A DNA stretch of 64,000 nucleotides from Streptomyces sp. NBC_00224 (GTDB lineage Bacteria; Actinomycetota; Actinomycetes; Streptomycetales; Streptomycetaceae), in NCBI RefSeq assembly GCF_041435195.1, contig NZ_CP108106.1, positions 7,019,001 to 7,083,000 on the forward strand, in the 5' to 3' direction. Below are positions 16,293 to 58,427 of this stretch, piece after piece. Both the position numbers and the translations under genes were made by a program. The notes under the pieces are model-generated. The model was given only the letters and a program-made list of their open reading frames with translations, had not been told where the DNA came from and made no database searches. Within the stretch, counting starts at the first letter, position 1. Each line of letters begins with the position of its first letter.

Positions 16293-19166
16293 ATGAGCGT
16301 GAACCGAGTGACGAAAAGGACCGTGCCCGAGGAACTCGCAGGTGTACGGACGGCCCTCCGCGGCAGGGACGCCGAACTGGCGTTCATCGCGGCGCGGCTC
16401 GACGCACTCGACCGGGGCGAAGGCGGGATCATCCGCGTCGAAGGCCCCGTCGGCATCGGCAGGTCCAGGATCCTCGCGGAGGCCGCGGCAGCCGCGAGGC
16501 GCCGCGGGACGAGGGTGTTCGAGGGAGCGGCGGACCCCGACGAGCAGTTCGTGCCGCTCGGTCCGCTCCTCGACGGTCTGCTCTCCGGCGAGGAACCGCT
16601 GTCGGGCGCCGTCCGCCTCAGGGACCTCGCTACGACGCCCGGCCAGCGCTTCTGGCTGCTCCAGGAACTGGGGGACCGCCTGCGGGAGACGGCTCGAAAC
16701 GGCCCCCTGCTCGTCGTCCTCGACGACCTCCAGTGGTGCGACGACCTGACCCTTCTCACCTTCAACACCCTCGCGGCCGGACTCTCGTCGTACGCCATCC
16801 TGTGGCTGGTCGCCGTGCGCGGCGGCAGCGTGCCGTCGGGAGTGCGCACGACCCTGGACCGGATCCGGCAGGCAGGCGCACACGAGCTGGCGCTGGGAGC
16901 GCTGGACGACCAGGCCACCACACGGATCACCGAGGACGTCCTGGGCGCCGCTCCCGACCCGGACGTCCTCCGCGTCGTCCGTCGCGCCGAAGGGGTCCCG
17001 CAGCTGCTGGTCGCGCTGCTCGGCTCGCTGCGGGAGGCAGTGACGATCGAGAACGGCACGGCCAGGCTGCCGGCCGGACCCCCAGCCCCACAGGAACTCC
17101 CCTCTGTCGTGCGCCGCCTCGACCAACTGTCCGACGAGGCGCGGGAGCTGGTGCAGACGGCGGCCGCCATGGGCGGCCCGGTCACCGTCGCGCTGCTGGC
17201 CGAACTGCTCGGCAGGTCCTCGGGGGCGCTCATCACAGCGGTACGGGAATCCCTCGACGCCGATCTGCTCACCGAAAGCGGCGATCGCCTCGCCTTCCGC
17301 CACGACCTGATCCGCGAGGCGGTGGAAGCCGGCCTCCCTCTGTCCCTGCGTCAGGCCCTGCGTGGTCAAGCCGCCGAGCTGCCACCGGGGAGCGCGGCCT
17401 CCCCCGCCGAGCGTCCCGGGCCGTCGGCCGGGAGAGCACCGGCAGATGCGGCGGAGGCCGGGAGAGCGGGGCCGGGAGACGCGGCGGAGGCCGACCGGCT
17501 GCGCACCGCCGCGGCAGAACTCGCGGGCACCGCTCCCGGACCCGCCGCGGAACGCAGTCTCAAGGCCCTGGAACTCACCACGGCGGCCGCTCCGGAGCGG
17601 CCGCGGATCATCGCCGAGACGATCCCGCTGCTCTGGCAGACGGGCCGGGCCGCCCAGGCGCGTGAGCTGGGAGCCTCCGCCCTGGCGGCCGGCGGTCTCG
17701 GACCTGAGGACGAGGCGCGCATACGCCTTGCCCTGGCACGCCTCGCCGTACCGTTCGACTTCTCCGAGGCGGTCCGGCAGGCCCGCGCCGGGGCGGCACT
17801 GCCCGGGATCCCCGTGGACGTCAGGGGGCGACTGCTGGCCATGCTCGCTGTCGGCCTGTCGATGTCGGGCGAGCACTCGGCGGCCGAGCAGGTCGCCGCG
17901 GAGGCGTGGGAGACCGCGGCGGCAGCGGGGGACCGCTCCGCCGAGGCCACGTTGACGACGGTCCGCTCGGCCGTGAGTTTCCACCGCATGGACTTGACCG
18001 AGGCGTTCCGGCAGGCCGAGCGGTCCGCCGCGCTGGCCGACGCCCTGGGCGTCAGCACCTCGCTGTGGGTTCCGGAGGCCTTGTGGCACGCTCTCCTGTC
18101 GAACACCACCGGACGCTCGGCGGAGGCGCTCGCCGCCGCGGAGGACGGCATCCGGATCACCAGGGAGCAGGGGCGGACGGCGGCCACCCGTATGTGGCTC
18201 ATGACCAGGTCCCGCATCCTTCTGGAGGCCGGACGGCTGACGGACGCCCGGGCGGACGCCGAAGCCGCGTCCGTGACGACCGACGATCCCGGCCCGGGAA
18301 ACCTCGCCGACGTCACGCTCCGGTACGTGATGATGCGCGTCGCCCTCCACACCAACGACCAGCAGACCGCCCGAGCGTACGCGGCGGAGGCGAGGCGCAT
18401 GCGGAGCGACGGCGCACCCGTCGTCCGGCACTTCGGCTCCTGGATGCTGGCGCTGATGGCCGACTTCGAAGGCCGACCCGACCGTGCCATGGCCGAACTC
18501 GACGCGGTGATGACATCGCCCGCCGCGGACCGGCCGGCCTACGCCGGCTTGGTCGACCCCGCCGACGCCCCGGTCCTCGTCCGCCTGGCGCTGCGCGGCG
18601 GCGCGCACGAACGGGCCGCGCAGGCAGTGGCCCTGGCCGAGCGACTGGCCGTGCTCAACCCCGACCTCACGTTCCTCGCCGCCACCGCCGCGCATGCCCG
18701 GGGGCTCCTCGACAACGACCTCGCCCCTCTCGTACGCGCCGTCCGGCTGTACGAGGACTGCCCTCGGCCGTTGGCCCGGGCGTCGGCACTGGAGGACGCC
18801 GGACGCAAGCTGGCGGCCACCCGCACGTCCGAAGCGGTGCCGTACTTCGACACGGCCCTCGCGCTCTACGCGCGAGCGGGCGCCGAGCGGGACGTCGCAC
18901 GCGTCCGTCGGCGCCTGCGGGCCGCCGGTGTCCGCCGCCGGCCCTCGACGGCCGGACTCTCCGGTGCATGGCCCGAGCTGACGGCCGCGGAGATACGGGT
19001 GGTACGGCTCGTGGCCCGAGGGCTGACCAACCAACAGGTGGCCGAGCACCTCTCCCTCTCGCCGCACACGGTGAGTTCGCACCTGCGCCGGGCCTTCACC
19101 AAGCTGGACATCACCTCGCGCGTGGAGCTGACCCGGCTGGTGAAGCATCGCGACAGCGGAGAGTAG
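16293..19166 (+). CDS. LAL-type LuxR regulator with altered Walker A
   Basis: A 957-aa protein with the LAL layout: N-terminal AAA-like ATPase, TPR-like helical middle, C-terminal LuxR helix-turn-helix (LTAAEIRVVRLVARGLTNQQV, then HTVSSHLRRAF). The P-loop reads GPVGIGRS (residues 51-58): the invariant Lys is Arg57, so ATP binding may be weakened or lost. Walker B LLVVLDDLQWCDD is intact. It lies just after the monooxygenase/reductase pair and is their likely regulator. No ribosome binding site is visible upstream of the ATG. Confidence 0.88.
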   Translation: MSVNRVTKRTVPEELAGVRTALRGRDAELAFIAARLDALDRGEGGIIRVEGPVGIGRSRILAEAAAAARRRGTRVFEGAADPDEQFVPLGPLLDGLLSGEEPLSGAVRLRDLATTPGQRFWLLQELGDRLRETARNGPLLVVLDDLQWCDDLTLLTFNTLAAGLSSYAILWLVAVRGGSVPSGVRTTLDRIRQAGAHELALGALDDQATTRITEDVLGAAPDPDVLRVVRRAEGVPQLLVALLGSLREAVTIENGTARLPAGPPAPQELPSVVRRLDQLSDEARELVQTAAAMGGPVTVALLAELLGRSSGALITAVRESLDADLLTESGDRLAFRHDLIREAVEAGLPLSLRQALRGQAAELPPGSAASPAERPGPSAGRAPADAAEAGRAGPGDAAEADRLRTAAAELAGTAPGPAAERSLKALELTTAAAPERPRIIAETIPLLWQTGRAAQARELGASALAAGGLGPEDEARIRLALARLAVPFDFSEAVRQARAGAALPGIPVDVRGRLLAMLAVGLSMSGEHSAAEQVAAEAWETAAAAGDRSAEATLTTVRSAVSFHRMDLTEAFRQAERSAALADALGVSTSLWVPEALWHALLSNTTGRSAEALAAAEDGIRITREQGRTAATRMWLMTRSRILLEAGRLTDARADAEAASVTTDDPGPGNLADVTLRYVMMRVALHTNDQQTARAYAAEARRMRSDGAPVVRHFGSWMLALMADFEGRPDRAMAELDAVMTSPAADRPAYAGLVDPADAPVLVRLALRGGAHERAAQAVALAERLAVLNPDLTFLAATAAHARGLLDNDLAPLVRAVRLYEDCPRPLARASALEDAGRKLAATRTSEAVPYFDTALALYARAGAERDVARVRRRLRAAGVRRRPSTAGLSGAWPELTAAEIRVVRLVARGLTNQQVAEHLSLSPHTVSSHLRRAFTKLDITSRVELTRLVKHRDSGE

Positions 19167-34395: not shown

Positions 34396-34470
34396 CGTCC
34401 CCCACCCGCGCCCGCCCGGGAGGCGTCTTCGGGGATCCCTTGACGCGCCTGCGTACGCCCCCTATGTTTC

Positions 34471-34506
34471 TTCCATATAGCAGAACTAAACTTCCGCATT
34501 ACGGAA
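34471..34506. promoter_or_regulatory. paired TTCC-N7-GGAA operators of gcl
   Basis: Box 1 at 34492-34506 is a perfect dyad, TTCCG-CATTA-CGGAA. Box 2 at 34471-34485 reads TTCCATATAGCAGAA. Their starts are 21 bp apart, two helical turns, so two dimers would bind the same face. The same architecture precedes hyi and aceB. An IclR-type regulator such as AllR, known to control allantoin/glyoxylate genes in streptomycetes, is my inference. No such gene is in the window. Confidence 0.65.
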
Positions 34507-34565: not shown

Positions 34566-36347
<1,782 letters not shown>

Positions 36348-43803: not shown

Positions 43804-43879
43804 CGTGACCTTCCGTACGGGAGCTGCACTGCTGAACGGTCTGCGGTGTCTGGAGCGTAGGTACGCCCCGAAGCGAACG

Positions 43880-43894
43880 TCAACAGTTTGTTGA
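43880..43894. promoter_or_regulatory. TCAACA-N3-TGTTGA operator of catalase
   Basis: The plus strand reads TCAACAGTTTGTTGA, a perfect 6-bp dyad 77 bp upstream of the catalase ATG. The minus strand reads TTTTCAACAAACTGTTGACG, nearly identical to the site before uraD (TTTTCAACAAAGTGTTGACG). TTGACG inside it could also be a -35 hexamer. Confidence 0.6.
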
Positions 43895-43909
43895 AAATGA
43901 AGTGGGGTG

Positions 43910-43991: not shown

Positions 43992-44906
43992 TCAGACCTG
44001 GGCGCCCGAGAGGCGCTCGACCGCGCGCAGCAGCGCCGAGTGGTCGAGACCGCCGTCACCCTGGGCGCGCAGCGAGGCCACCAGCTGGGCGACGACCGCG
44101 CCGACCGGGAGCGCCGCACCGACGTTGCGGGCGGCGTCGGTGACGATGCCCATGTCCTTGTGGTGCAGGTCGATGCGGAAGCCCGGCGCGAAGTTCCGGT
44201 TGAGGAAGTTGTCCTTCTTGCGGGTCAGCACGGTCGAGCCGGCCAGACCGCCGTTGAGGACGTCGAGCGCCGCGGCGAGGTCCACCCCGGACTTCTCCAG
44301 GAAGACCACGGCCTCGGCGCACGCCTGGATGTTGACCGCCACGATCAGCTGGTTGGCGGCCTTCACCGTCTGGCCGGAGCCGTGCGGGCCGCAGAGCACG
44401 ATGGTCTTGCCCAGCGCGTCGAAGATGCCCTTGGCCTCGTCGAAGTCGGCCTTCTCGCCGCCGACCATGATGGAGAGCACGGCCTCGATGGCGCCGGCTT
44501 CGCCGCCGGAGACCGGGGCGTCGAGGACGCGCACGCCCTTCTCCTTGGCGTTCCTGGCCAGGTCGACCGAGGTCTGCGGGGTGATCGAGGACATGTCGAT
44601 CAGGAGGGCGCCCTGCTTGGCGTTGGCCAGGATGCCGGCCTCACCGTAGGCGATCGCCTCGACCTGCGGGGACGCCGGGACCATGGTGATGATCACGTCC
44701 GCGTCCTCGACCGCGTCGGCGATCGAGGCGGCCGCGGTGCCACCGGCGGCGGCCAGGCGGTCCAGCTTGTCCTGCTCCAGCGTGAAGCCGGTGACGGAGT
44801 AACCCGCCTTGATCAGGTTCTCGGCCATGGGCGAGCCCATGATGCCGAGGCCGATCCACGCGATCGCCGGGCGGGTGGGCTGGGAGGAGCCAGCAAGGTT
44901 GCTCAT
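43992..44906 (-). CDS. glxR: 2-hydroxy-3-oxopropionate (tartronate semialdehyde) reductase
   Basis: A 304-aa beta-hydroxyacid dehydrogenase. The NAD(P)-binding motif IAWIGLGIMGSPMAENL is near the N-terminus, the substrate signature is DAPVSGGEAGA, and the catalytic Lys is in GQTVKAANQLIVA. It reduces tartronate semialdehyde, the Gcl product, to D-glycerate. It is 38 bp downstream of hyi on the same strand, so the two form an operon under the hyi operators. Confidence 0.96.
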   Translation of the reverse strand: MSNLAGSSQPTRPAIAWIGLGIMGSPMAENLIKAGYSVTGFTLEQDKLDRLAAAGGTAAASIADAVEDADVIITMVPASPQVEAIAYGEAGILANAKQGALLIDMSSITPQTSVDLARNAKEKGVRVLDAPVSGGEAGAIEAVLSIMVGGEKADFDEAKGIFDALGKTIVLCGPHGSGQTVKAANQLIVAVNIQACAEAVVFLEKSGVDLAAALDVLNGGLAGSTVLTRKKDNFLNRNFAPGFRIDLHHKDMGIVTDAARNVGAALPVGAVVAQLVASLRAQGDGGLDHSALLRAVERLSGAQV

Positions 44907-44944: not shown

Positions 44945-45799
44945 TCAGCGGGCCGCGCGGGCCTCGGCCGGGAGCCACTCGAAGGAGGCCGCGGCGTCGG
45001 CGGCCTTGTACTCCAGGCCCACCCAGCCGTCGTAACCGGCCTTCGCGAGCTGGTCGAGGAGGGCCTCAAGGGGCAGCGAGCCGGTGCCCGGCGCGCCGCG
45101 GCCCGGGTTGTCGGCGATCTGCACATGGCCGGTCTTGTCCGCGTAGGCCTCGATGACCTGGGAGACGTCCTCGCCGTTCATCGACAGGTGGTAGATGTCG
45201 AGGAGGAACTTGGCGTTGCCGAGGCCGGTCGCCGCGTTGACCTTGTCGACGACGTCGATCGCGGACGGGGCGCTCACCAGTGGGTAGAGCGGCGACTCCG
45301 GCTTGTTGAGGGCCTCGATCAGGAGGATCGCGCCGACCCGGTCGGCGGCGCGGGCGGCCAGCACCAGGTTCTCCAGCGCGAGCGCGTCCTGCACCTGCGG
45401 GTCGGCCCCCTCCACCCGGTTGCCGTACAGCGCGTTGAGCGCCTTGCAGCCCACCGAGGCGGCGAAGTCCGCCGCGACCTCGATGTTGGCGCGGAAGCGG
45501 TCCGACTCCTCGCCGGGTACGGAGAGGGCTCCGCGGTCGGGGCCCGGCAGGGCGCCCGCGTAGAAGTTCAGGCCCACCAGCTGGGTGCCGGCCTCGTCGA
45601 GCGCCTTCTTCAGGGCGTCGAGCTCGGCCTGCGGCGGGGTGGGGGTTTCGATCCAGGGCCACCACAGCTCGACCGCCGTGAAGCCTGCCGCGGCGGCGGC
45701 CGCGGGGCGCTCCAGGAGCGGGAGTTCCGTGAAGAGGATCGAGAGGTTCACATCGAAGCGCTGGTCCGAGCCGCGTCCATGCTCAAGAAAAGGGGCCAT
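44945..45799 (-). CDS. hyi: hydroxypyruvate isomerase
   Basis: A 284-aa TIM-barrel enzyme of the xylose-isomerase-like family: FDVNLSILFTELPLLERP, AVELWWPW, LIEALNKPESPLYPL, LLDIYHLSMNGEDV, HVQIADNPGRGAPGTG. It interconverts hydroxypyruvate and tartronate semialdehyde and is a regular partner of gcl and glxR. The ATG 45799 is preceded by GAAGGAGCG. Its upstream region holds two operator boxes shared with gcl and aceB. Confidence 0.95.
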   Translation of the reverse strand: MAPFLEHGRGSDQRFDVNLSILFTELPLLERPAAAAAAGFTAVELWWPWIETPTPPQAELDALKKALDEAGTQLVGLNFYAGALPGPDRGALSVPGEESDRFRANIEVAADFAASVGCKALNALYGNRVEGADPQVQDALALENLVLAARAADRVGAILLIEALNKPESPLYPLVSAPSAIDVVDKVNAATGLGNAKFLLDIYHLSMNGEDVSQVIEAYADKTGHVQIADNPGRGAPGTGSLPLEALLDQLAKAGYDGWVGLEYKAADAAASFEWLPAEARAAR

Positions 45800-45814: not shown

Positions 45815-45850
45815 TTCCGTATTGCGGAAGTTAGTTTCTGCTTGATGGAA
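45815..45850. promoter_or_regulatory. paired TTCC-N7-GGAA operators of hyi-glxR
   Basis: Box 1 at 45815-45829 is TTCCGTATTGCGGAA (perfect TTCCG/CGGAA arms). Box 2 at 45836-45850 is TTCTGCTTGATGGAA, whose reverse complement TTCCATCAAGCAGAA is nearly the gcl box 2. The start-to-start distance is again 21 bp. The boxes lie in the divergent gap between hyi and the gene at 45930. Confidence 0.65.
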
Positions 45851-45929
45851 GGTTGCAGGGCGAGCGGCGGGCTTGTCAAGGGGCCCCCTCCGATTGGCCT
45901 GCCGGATTCCCGAATCCGCGCAGTAGGTT

Positions 45930-46187
45930 GTGCGCGTGCGATTGAGAGTGGAGTTCACGACCGAGCCCTTCGACCTGGACGAGGCGCCCCCGCATGCCGT
46001 GGCCGCCCGCGAGGTCCTGCAGACGGCGGCGCTCGACGCCGTGGACGTGGGCCCCTTCGGCAACACGGCCGAGGGCGGCGCCGACCAGGTGCTCACCGCC
46101 GTCGACGCGCTGCTGCGCAAGTCCCTGGCGGCCGGTGCCACCCGGGTGTCGCTCCAGGTCAACGTGGTCGGGGAGGGCGAGAAGTGA
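45930..46187 (+). CDS. MTH1187/DUF77-like small protein
   Basis: About 85 aa, starting at GTG 45930 or 45936. The pattern VDVGPFGNTAEGGADQVLTAVDALLRKSLAAGATRVSLQVNVVGEGE matches the MTH1187/YkoF-type ferredoxin-like fold (a Gly-rich EG...D turn, then GAxRV and a final strand), some members of which bind thiamine or other small ligands. It overlaps the following helix-turn-helix gene (GTGA), suggesting a sensor-regulator pair. Confidence 0.6.
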   Translation: MRVRLRVEFTTEPFDLDEAPPHAVAAREVLQTAALDAVDVGPFGNTAEGGADQVLTAVDALLRKSLAAGATRVSLQVNVVGEGEK

Positions 46188-46561
46188 CCGAGCCTGCCGA
46201 CCACCCGCTGGTCGCGGCGGTCAAGCCGCTGGTGGACGCCATGGGGGCGGAGATACTGGGGCCCGACCAGGCCGAGCCCGACGACGTGGTGCTCAGCTGG
46301 GAGGGCGAGGACGTCATCGCGGTGCGGCTGCCGCAGCTGTCGGACTCCCTCGACCACATCCTGGCCGCCATGGAGCGCCGCCACGGCCGGCCGCTGGCCG
46401 AGCTCGACCGCAGGGCCAAGCAGTCGGTCGTACGGACCCTGGAGGCGCGCGGAGCCTTCTCCGTACGCCATGGGGTGGAGACCGTCGCGTCCGCCCTCGG
46501 GGTGAGCCGGTTCACCGTGTACAACTACCTGAACAGGGAAAACGCCGCCAAAGGCGAGTAA
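46184..46561 (+). CDS. YheO/DauR-like helix-turn-helix protein (HTH_22)
   Basis: A 125-aa protein. The C-terminal stretch VRTLEARGAFSVRHGVETVASALGVSRFTVYNYLNRE fits the HTH_22 DNA-binding domain of YheO/DauR-type regulators. The N-terminal part (VKPLVDAMGAEILGPDQAEPDDVVLSWEGEDV) resembles a short PAS-like or ligand region. GTG start inside the upstream stop. It sits between the hyi and uraD promoters and is the only DNA-binding protein in the purine cluster, so it is a candidate for one of the two operator families. Confidence 0.75.
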   Translation: MTEPADHPLVAAVKPLVDAMGAEILGPDQAEPDDVVLSWEGEDVIAVRLPQLSDSLDHILAAMERRHGRPLAELDRRAKQSVVRTLEARGAFSVRHGVETVASALGVSRFTVYNYLNRENAAKGE

Positions 46562-46625: not shown

Positions 46626-46638
46626 TTGCTCCAAGTTT

Positions 46639-46653
46639 TCAACAAAGTGTTGA
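46639..46653. promoter_or_regulatory. TCAACA-N3-TGTTGA operator of uraD-uraH-uricase
   Basis: TCAACAAAGTGTTGA, a perfect 6-bp dyad, lies 66 bp upstream of the uraD GTG. It shares 19 of 20 bases with the catalase site (minus strand) including flanks. It may overlap a TTGACG -35 element. Confidence 0.65.
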
Positions 46654-46718
46654 CGGGATGTTTCCGAGGGCGTTAGCTATCCGCAGCCCGTCCAGCACCA
46701 AGGCCACGGAGGCCGTTC

Positions 46719-56569: not shown

Positions 56570-58189
56570 TCAGCCGACCAGCTGCTCGTACGCGGGCAGC
56601 GTCAGGAAGTCCGCGTAGTCCGCGTCGAGGGAGACCTTCAGGAGCAGGTCGTGGGCCTGCTGCCAGCGGCCGGCCGCGAAGGCCTCCTCGCCGATCTCGG
56701 CGCGGATCGCGGCCAGTTCCTCGGCCGCGACCTTGCGGGCGAGGTCGGCGGTGGCGAGCTCGCCGTTCTCGAACACCACACCCGCGTTGATCCACTGCCA
56801 GATCTGCGAGCGGGAGATCTCGGCGGTGGCCGCGTCCTCCATGAGGTTGAAGATGGCGACGGCGCCGAGGCCGCGCAGCCAGGCCTCGATGTAGCGGGTG
56901 CCGACCTGGACGGCGTTGCGCAGACCGTCGTAGGTGGGCTTCGCGTCCAGCGAGTCGATGGCGATCAGGTCGCCGGGCGCCACCGAGACGTCCTCGCGCA
57001 GCCGGTCCTTCTGGTTCGGCCGGTCGCCGAGGACCGCGTCGAAGGAGGCCATGGCGATCGGGACGAGGTCCGGGTGGGCGACCCAGGAGCCGTCGAAGCC
57101 GTCGCCCGCCTCGCGGTCCTTGTCGGCCTTGACCTTCTCGAACGCGACCTTGTTGACCTCGGCGTCCTTGCGGGACGGGATGAAGGCCGCCATGCCGCCG
57201 ATGGCGTGCGCGCCGCGCTTGTGGCAGGTGCGGACGAGCAGTTCGGTGTACGCCCGCATGAAGGGCGCCGTCATCGTCACGAGGTTGCGGTCCGGCAGGA
57301 CGAACTTGGCGCCGCCGTCACGGAAGTTCTTGACGATGGAGAAGAGGTAGTCCCAGCGGCCCGCGTTGAGCCCGGCGGCGTGGTCGCGCAGCTCGTAGAG
57401 GATCTCCTCCATCTCGTACGCGGCCGTGATCGTCTCGATCAGGACGGTCGCGCGGACCGTGCCCTGCGGGATGCCGACGTAGTCCTGGGCGAAGACGAAG
57501 ACGTCGTTCCAGAGGCGGGCCTCCAGGTACGACTCGGTCTTGGGGAGGTAGAAGTACGGGCCCTTGCCGAGCTCGATGAGGCGCTTGGCGTTGTGGAAGA
57601 AGTAGAGGCCGAAGTCGACCAGGGCGCCGGGCACCGGGCGGCCGTCGAAGCGCAGGTGGCGCTCCTCCAGGTGCCAGCCGCGCGGGCGCATCACGACGGT
57701 GGCGAGCTGGTCGGCGTCCTTGAGCGCGTACGACTTGCCGGACCTCGGGTCGGTGAAGTCGATCCTGCGCTCGTACGCGTCGATCAGGTTGAGCTGGCCC
57801 GTGACGACGTTCTCCCAGGTGGGGGCGGAGGCGTCCTCGAAGTCGGCGAGCCAGACCTTGGCGCCCGAGTTGAGCGCGTTGATGGTCATCTTGCGGTCGG
57901 TCGGGCCGGTGATCTCGACCCGGCGGTCGTTGAGCGCGGCCGGGGCCGGGGCGACCTTCCAGTCGCCCTCGCGCACGGCGGCCGTCTCGGGGCGGAAGTC
58001 GAGCGTGGAGGTGCGGGCGATCTCCTCGCGGCGCTCCTGGCGGCGGAGCAGCAGCTCGTCACGGCGGGGCGTGAACAGCCGGTGCAGCTCGGCCACGAAG
58101 GCGAGGGCCGCGTCGGTGAGCACCTCGTCCTGCCGGGGCAGGGGCTCGGCGTCGACGATGGCCAGCGGGGACGGCGCTGGTGCGGACAT
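56570..58189 (-). CDS. aceB: malate synthase A
   Basis: A 539-aa malate synthase: GPTDRKMTINALNSGAKVWL, LADFEDASAPTWENV, the core ATVLIETITAAYEMEEILYELRDHAAGLNAGRWDY, and a C-terminal acidic loop (LMEDAATAEISRSQIWQW, with the catalytic Asp). It condenses glyoxylate with acetyl-CoA. Paired operator boxes shared with gcl and hyi lie 115-150 bp upstream, indicating that it serves ureide-derived glyoxylate. Isocitrate lyase is not in the window. Confidence 0.97.
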   Translation of the reverse strand: MSAPAPSPLAIVDAEPLPRQDEVLTDAALAFVAELHRLFTPRRDELLLRRQERREEIARTSTLDFRPETAAVREGDWKVAPAPAALNDRRVEITGPTDRKMTINALNSGAKVWLADFEDASAPTWENVVTGQLNLIDAYERRIDFTDPRSGKSYALKDADQLATVVMRPRGWHLEERHLRFDGRPVPGALVDFGLYFFHNAKRLIELGKGPYFYLPKTESYLEARLWNDVFVFAQDYVGIPQGTVRATVLIETITAAYEMEEILYELRDHAAGLNAGRWDYLFSIVKNFRDGGAKFVLPDRNLVTMTAPFMRAYTELLVRTCHKRGAHAIGGMAAFIPSRKDAEVNKVAFEKVKADKDREAGDGFDGSWVAHPDLVPIAMASFDAVLGDRPNQKDRLREDVSVAPGDLIAIDSLDAKPTYDGLRNAVQVGTRYIEAWLRGLGAVAIFNLMEDAATAEISRSQIWQWINAGVVFENGELATADLARKVAAEELAAIRAEIGEEAFAAGRWQQAHDLLLKVSLDADYADFLTLPAYEQLVG

Positions 58190-58303: not shown

Positions 58304-58339
58304 TTCTGAACAGTGGATACTAGTTTCCTCATAGTGGAA
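58304..58339. promoter_or_regulatory. paired TTCC-N7-GGAA operators of aceB
   Basis: Box 1 at 58325-58339 is TTCCTCATAGTGGAA. Box 2 at 58304-58318 is TTCTGAACAGTGGAT. The start distance is 21 bp, as at gcl and hyi. The boxes lie 115-150 bp upstream of the aceB start. Confidence 0.55.
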
Positions 58340-58341
58340 GT

Positions 58342-58356
58342 TCAATGGTTTGTTGA
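58342..58356. promoter_or_regulatory. degenerate TCAACA-N3-TGTTGA-like site near aceB
   Basis: The plus strand reads TCAATGGTTTGTTGA; the minus strand reads TCAACAAACCATTGA, sharing the TCAACAAA half with the catalase and uraD sites. It starts 2 bp beyond the aceB TTCC box, which suggests that both regulators may act here. Confidence 0.45.
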
Positions 58357-58427
58357 TATCGAGATTCTCCGGGTCGACAGACCGTGGCGCTCGGTGCCAC
58401 CGCGTTCACTCCAGGTGTACCGGAGGA

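Follow-up and report, generated by a model that had tools for sequence, protein, structure and literature searches.

The AllR protein of Streptomyces coelicolor reportedly represses genes of the allantoin pathway, hyi being one of its targets, and belongs to the IclR type. In Escherichia coli, both AllR and IclR are glyoxylate-responsive repressors, and AllR acts on gcl; another member of the family, BhcR of Paracoccus denitrificans, is an activator of the beta-hydroxyaspartate cycle whose DNA binding is lowered by glyoxylate (PMC11323563, in the part used here). Tandem sites of IclR-family regulators, as presented in the consulted part of PMC8222616, consist of palindromic boxes with centers 18-22 nt apart and are interpreted as tetramer binding. 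The portion of Table 1 of that paper available to us includes E. coli AllR with the motif KTTGGAAWAWTWTTCCAAC, and no Streptomyces AllR was found in it. In a body of literature represented mostly by titles and abstract openings, we found no description of the Streptomyces tandem operator analyzed below.

Putative tandem operators of glyoxylate metabolism genes

The window, i.e., the whole stretch of 64,000 nucleotides that was analyzed (G000:C1:7019001-7083000), belongs to a genome of 9.18 Mb. It contains three 36-bp elements, located upstream of gcl, hyi-glxR and aceB exactly where a previous sequence-only reading had placed them (Table 1). Each element is composed of two 15-bp TTCC-N7-GGAA-like boxes and a 6-bp spacer (15-6-15), and the distance of 21 bp between box starts is the same at all three loci, in agreement with that reading. 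On the coding strand, the gcl and hyi elements are similar across most of the 36 bp. The second boxes had also been described as weaker, which is not clearly the case, as the two boxes score 22.2/20.5 at gcl, 20.5/19.8 at hyi and 16.4/22.6 at aceB with a matrix derived from sites elsewhere, for which the 99.9% quantile over 80 named loci is 1.4. The box centers, 21 nt apart at gcl, hyi and aceB, fall within the 18-22 nt range of IclR-family tandem operators.

Specificity resides in the pair, and the lone dyad is uninformative: a single TTCC-N7-GGAA dyad has 91 exact copies genome-wide versus 48 for the backward control. An exact box accompanied by a box with up to two mismatches at offset 21 occurs three times in the window, compared with a mean of 0.003 and a maximum of one in 300 dinucleotide shuffles of the window, and every other offset between 15 and 60 gives at most one pair in the real sequence. 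A whole-genome search for the 36-bp motif, proposed as a check in the sequence-only reading, was performed with the composite pattern at up to three mismatches and returned five places in 9.18 Mb, namely gcl, hyi, aceB, the allR/allB gap and the DUF6986 promoter, versus zero for the backward control; since the pattern was derived from the three window sites, this search tests their specificity and not their discovery. The gcl, hyi and aceB sites are only a part of the regulon. The 36-bp signature provides a sharp, searchable mark of a genus-wide glyoxylate/allantoin regulon, and its high specificity makes it usable for assigning unknown genes to the pathway, DUF6986 being already such a case.

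Promoters were predicted as consensus readings and do not represent mapped starts. When 29 gcl promoters are anchored, their consensus shows TtgaCG and TA.ATT, and the predicted gcl promoter ends 2 bp before box 1, so that the transcription start is expected inside this box. At aceB, for which TTGAAC and TA.TAT are seen in the anchored consensus, one box takes up 15 bp of the 17-bp spacer between the hexamers, and the other box overlaps the end of -10 by 2 bp together with the expected transcription start.

Table 1. Coordinates of genes, predicted promoters and conserved elements (positions refer to the window unless a locus handle is given)
Feature	Location	Strand	Description
Predicted gcl promoter	34440..34468	+	TTGACG-17-TATGTT; sequence and consensus
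Putative tandem operator of gcl	34471..34506	+	TTCCATATAGCAGAA-CTAAAC-TTCCGCATTACGGAA
gcl, glyoxylate carboligase	34566..36347	+	TIGR01504, 1193.9 bits (cut-off 711.2)
Second dyad, catalase	43879-43895		
glxR, 2-hydroxy-3-oxopropionate reductase	43992..44906	-	TIGR01505, 482.4 bits (cut-off 340.75)
hyi, hydroxypyruvate-isomerase-like	44945..45799	-	TIGR03234, 307.5 bits, below cut-off 353.45
Putative tandem operator of hyi-glxR	45815..45850	-	Coding strand: TTCCATCAAGCAGAA-ACTAAC-TTCCGCAATACGGAA
Predicted hyi -35	45874..45879	-	TTGACA; CTTGACA in anchored consensus; -10 not clear
Thiamine-binding-like small protein gene	45930-46184		Below cut-off; between hyi and uraD
HTH_22 protein gene	46187-46561		Between hyi and uraD
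Second dyad, uraD-uricase	46638-46654		
aceB, malate synthase A	56570..58189	-	TIGR01344, 835.3 bits (cut-off 594.5)
Putative tandem operator of aceB	58304..58339	-	
Predicted aceB promoter	58317..58345	-	TTGAAC-17-TAGTAT
Second dyad at aceB	58341-58357		Two-mismatch copy abutting the aceB operator
allR, IclR-type gene	L021:9588-10385	-	Window-equivalent 67587-68384; 3.6 kb past window end
Tandem site at allR/allB	L021:10524-10559		Inside 343-bp gap; 4.5 kb past window end
Second dyad, allR/allB gap	L021:10637-10653		At allB
allB, allantoinase	L021:10729-12066	+	TIGR03178, 623.7 bits; allantoicase gene next
DUF6986 gene	L022:3596-4894	-	5.2 Mb from window
Site upstream of DUF6986	L022:4933-4968		

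Conservation of the tandem element

The matrix used for testing was built from allR and aceB sites in 80 named loci, namely those nearest to the AllR studied here; the closest AllR loci are from Streptomyces. Among these training loci, the pair is present at allR in 79 out of 79 loci (L080 was too short) and at aceB in 63 out of 63 (aceB being within reach in 63 of the 80); the best offset between 15 and 80 is 21 in 78/79 and 63/63 of them, respectively. Among promoters outside the training set, the tandem score exceeds the 99% shuffle level in all 29 gcl promoters (46 genomes have gcl, of which the 30 loci with the highest scores were taken and L181 proved too short), and the pair is found in 29 of 30 hyi promoters (the 30 best of 54, with L225 lacking it; 29/29 in another scoring round). 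For these promoters, 21 is again the best offset within the same range at gcl (29/29), hyi (29/29) and DUF6986 (29/30). In the 1.59 Mb comprising the window and the 80 named loci, 154 pairs scoring above 19 were counted at offset 21, overlapping registers included, the next being 24 pairs at offset 22; among the 151 such offset-21 pairs outside the window, 87 are located at allR, 63 at aceB and one elsewhere. It should be noted that orthologous promoters are not independent, and these counts reflect maintenance of the element and not separate origins. At orthologous gcl, hyi and aceB promoters, both boxes and the distance between them are maintained, and not missing, which upholds the shared regulon proposed from the sequence alone.

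Across the genus, the composite with up to two mismatches is present in 94 of 101 genomes, the control giving a single match over the whole set. The seven genomes without it at this threshold are G031, G035, G037, G043, G060, G073 and G094. With the exception of G073, they possess an AllR relative with 75-91% identity, including five diverged ones at 75-84%; for G094 (91%), the matrix finds a pair scoring 37.5 between allR and allB (L357). Among 20 further Streptomyces, about half of which were picked for a diverged AllR, the allR/allB stretch scores above 15 in 16 cases and reaches 12.4 and 15.0 in two others, and no tandem score above 12 was found there in L360 and L365, nor at allR/allB in G037 and G043. 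One genome has two identical aceB-type operators that point in opposite directions and are separated by about 410 bp (L113:15962-15997 and 16372-16407).

At the class level, the composite with up to two mismatches was identified in 43 of 197 genomes, comprising all 16 Streptomyces and 27 of 181 others, with three matches for the control. Fourteen stretches around matches were analyzed, all picked for having a match, with L309 being of Streptomyces origin. The nine stretches holding allR all score above 15 at this gene, and some others have the site at aceB or hyi. Among six non-Streptomyces genomes represented by loci picked by DUF6986, the pair is found at allR in five (G136, G194, G215, G283 and G281, the first four being pattern matches too), and G223 has no pair at allR. 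Strong pairs in L307 (G146:C5, ~7735) and L309 (G033:C52, ~9590) have no gene of the query set within the stretch and may mark further targets. Additionally, three genomes belonging to a single genus have a second tandem-like site at a distance of ~0.23-0.30 kb from their hyi operator (L303:8599, L304:13700, L311:9591).

The candidate regulator and its predicted mode of action

Beyond the window, the allR and allB genes are divergent, and a further copy of the tandem site is located between them. The sequence-only reading had linked the boxes to AllR by inference; the occurrence of the same pair ahead of the genome's single close AllR-type gene, which diverges from allB, and at allR in 79/79 close relatives strengthens this probable link. 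The candidate regulator has HTH_IclR (68.6 bits, cut-off 22) and IclR_C (147.1 bits, cut-off 24) domains. The best NCBIfam matches are all below their cut-offs, in the order BhcR (203.9 bits, cut-off 350), IclR (168.4, cut-off 380) and the E. coli-type AllR equivalog NF007548 (125.5, cut-off 406). As the last cut-off is missed, the name AllR rests on the gene neighborhood and on what has reportedly been described in Streptomyces. Compared with E. coli IclR (2o99), the regulator retains Gly160, Asp212, Ser239 and Ser241 (IclR numbering) and has Val in place of Ala161; the list of glyoxylate-contacting residues comes from Table 1 in the consulted part of PMC11323563, and the motif-based mapping was made in the present analysis.

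The combined evidence from site conservation, fixed spacing, promoter position and the adjoining regulator gene makes it very probable that AllR, an IclR-family repressor, uses each of the 36-bp elements as a tandem operator. According to the proposed mechanism, the palindromic boxes, which are separated by two helical turns and lie on the same DNA face, would be occupied by a pair of AllR dimers or by a single tetramer, and the fixed spacing offers a direct test of the IclR tetramer model. With operators lying over the core promoter or start at gcl and aceB, bound AllR would block RNA polymerase, at the start of gcl and at the -35/-10 spacer and -10 of aceB. Breakdown of allantoin would raise the level of glyoxylate or allantoate, upon which AllR would let go, and the promoters of gcl, hyi-glxR, aceB, allB-allC and allR would open together, leading to clearance of glyoxylate. 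The DUF6986 gene would be the fifth conserved target of AllR.

Other explanations of these sites can be weighed against the same data. An origin of the pairs by chance or as composition artefacts would draw on the abundance of single TTCC-N7-GGAA dyads (91 in the genome), but it is refuted by the shuffled, backward and offset controls and by conservation, so that it deserves virtually no credence. A different regulator, of the IclR type or unrelated to it, could bind the sites, the allR promoter then being just one more target. The genome has 15 IclR_C matches, one genome (G050, 82% complete) carries the site with no AllR match at E<=1e-60, and six genomes have an AllR relative without the composite at up to two mismatches. 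This scenario nevertheless appears quite improbable given that 99 of 101 genomes have a single close AllR relative each (E<=1e-60) and that the site accompanies allR in 79/79 close relatives and in other families.

AllR might also bind as an activator or a dual regulator at some of the promoters. Repression by AllR is not certain because the related BhcR, which provides the best NCBIfam match, is an IclR-type activator according to the part of PMC11323563 used here. The placement of the operators also differs, being downstream of -10 at gcl and between -35 and -10 at aceB, but both placements overlap the core promoter or the start, which fits repression. Streptomyces AllR is itself said to be a repressor. 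The same applies to E. coli IclR and AllR in the accessible part of PMC11323563, and we regard activation as improbable.

DUF6986, a tentative ureidoglycolate lyase

The least expected member of the operator set is the DUF6986 gene, and the main follow-up value of the operator lies in its use to place this gene. The tandem score of DUF6986 promoters is past the 99% shuffle level in 28 of 30 cases and exceeds 15 in 65 of 71 Streptomyces genomes, the studied one included (56/59 and 9/12 in the two sets); the misses are L149, L175, L286 (14.6), L320 (8.7), L322 and L323. The left box is the weaker one here, with a median score of 8.1 and both boxes above 8 in 29/56.

The DUF6986 protein matches PF22484, with PF03328 just below its cut-off, and has a malyl-CoA-lyase/malate-synthase-like fold. 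A comparison with PDB sequences gave two matches above E 0.3 and no credible relative; a first structure prediction from 15 close sequences reached a pLDDT of 63.7 and was left unused. The protein does not match the classical ureidoglycolate lyase family AllA (PF04115), which itself has no match in this genome at E<=1e-8 and is lacking in 196 of the 197 genomes analyzed at class level. Outside Streptomyces, DUF6986 is found among allantoin/urate genes. Two of the genomes checked have no intact allB/allC next to allR, and DUF6986 is missing from both. A lack of DUF6986 was also noted in six additional Streptomyces. In a Streptomyces genome without DUF6986 (G247), the region L344:5900-6450 contains remnants of the deleted allB-allC beside intact allR and aceB.

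Because the operator is common at this gene, which clusters with allantoin/urate genes elsewhere and is absent from both checked genomes in which allR has no intact allB/allC next to it, we tentatively put forward DUF6986 (PF22484) as a possible ureidoglycolate lyase of a type unrelated to AllA, with a malyl-CoA-lyase/malate-synthase barrel and AllR control via the tandem operator, a proposal that we hold at somewhat less than even confidence. If true, it would fill the missing ureidoglycolate-to-glyoxylate step of actinomycete allantoin breakdown. The fold and the regulon would also allow a second malate synthase, but the ureide step seems to fit better, as aceB is retained in both genomes from which DUF6986 and intact allB/allC beside allR are missing. 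No paper on DUF6986 under that name was found in the open-licence literature searched.

The operator assignment is least certain at this gene because two elements overlap there in part of the species. The element might consist of one AllR box and the second dyad TTCAAC-N5-GTTGAA (see below) instead of an AllR tandem: some of the species have TTCAACGGATTGTTGAT as its left half, the left box has the low median score given above, and a second dyad with up to two mismatches occurs in 21 of 59 upstream stretches, although not always at that place. On balance, this composition is rather unlikely, considering the clear left box in the studied genome (17.9; TTCTGNTATGCGGAT) and in several others, as well as offset 21 being the best in 29/30 promoters.

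A second conserved dyad

A second dyad, TTCAAC-N5-GTTGAA, occurs with up to one mismatch between allR and allB in 79/79 loci and nowhere else in them. The form noted across its catalase, uraD-uricase and allB copies is TTCAAC-N5-GTTGA(A/C). At up to two mismatches, the window contains six copies versus 0.26 expected; besides those in Table 1, the other three (10469, 21505 and 32527) have no known tie to the pathway. When only dyads flanked by 25 bp of sequence in both directions are counted, the 30 hyi loci contain, at up to one mismatch, 26 copies towards catalase and 14 towards uraD. Judging by its positions, the second dyad may define a separate urate regulon, and the HTH_22 protein encoded beside uraD is a candidate regulator.

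Comparison with known regulatory systems

The regulator is reportedly already described in Streptomyces, and the AllR regulon of S. coelicolor is said to resemble the present one in its IclR-type repressor and hyi target. The tandem layout, in turn, is a known trait of the IclR family, as documented in the part of PMC8222616 used here: the spacing of 21 is alike, and the motif in the present case is TTCC-N7-GGAA. This motif is unlike the KTTGGAAWAWTWTTCCAAC listed for E. coli AllR in the same excerpt, and the present protein is far below the cut-off of the E. coli AllR model. In common with E. coli AllR and IclR, as portrayed in the accessible portion of PMC11323563, are the predicted glyoxylate-responsive control of gcl and the oxygen-binding ligand residues, which are largely kept. 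Finally, BhcR is the nearest NCBIfam model to the present regulator, yet the score is below the cut-off of that model.
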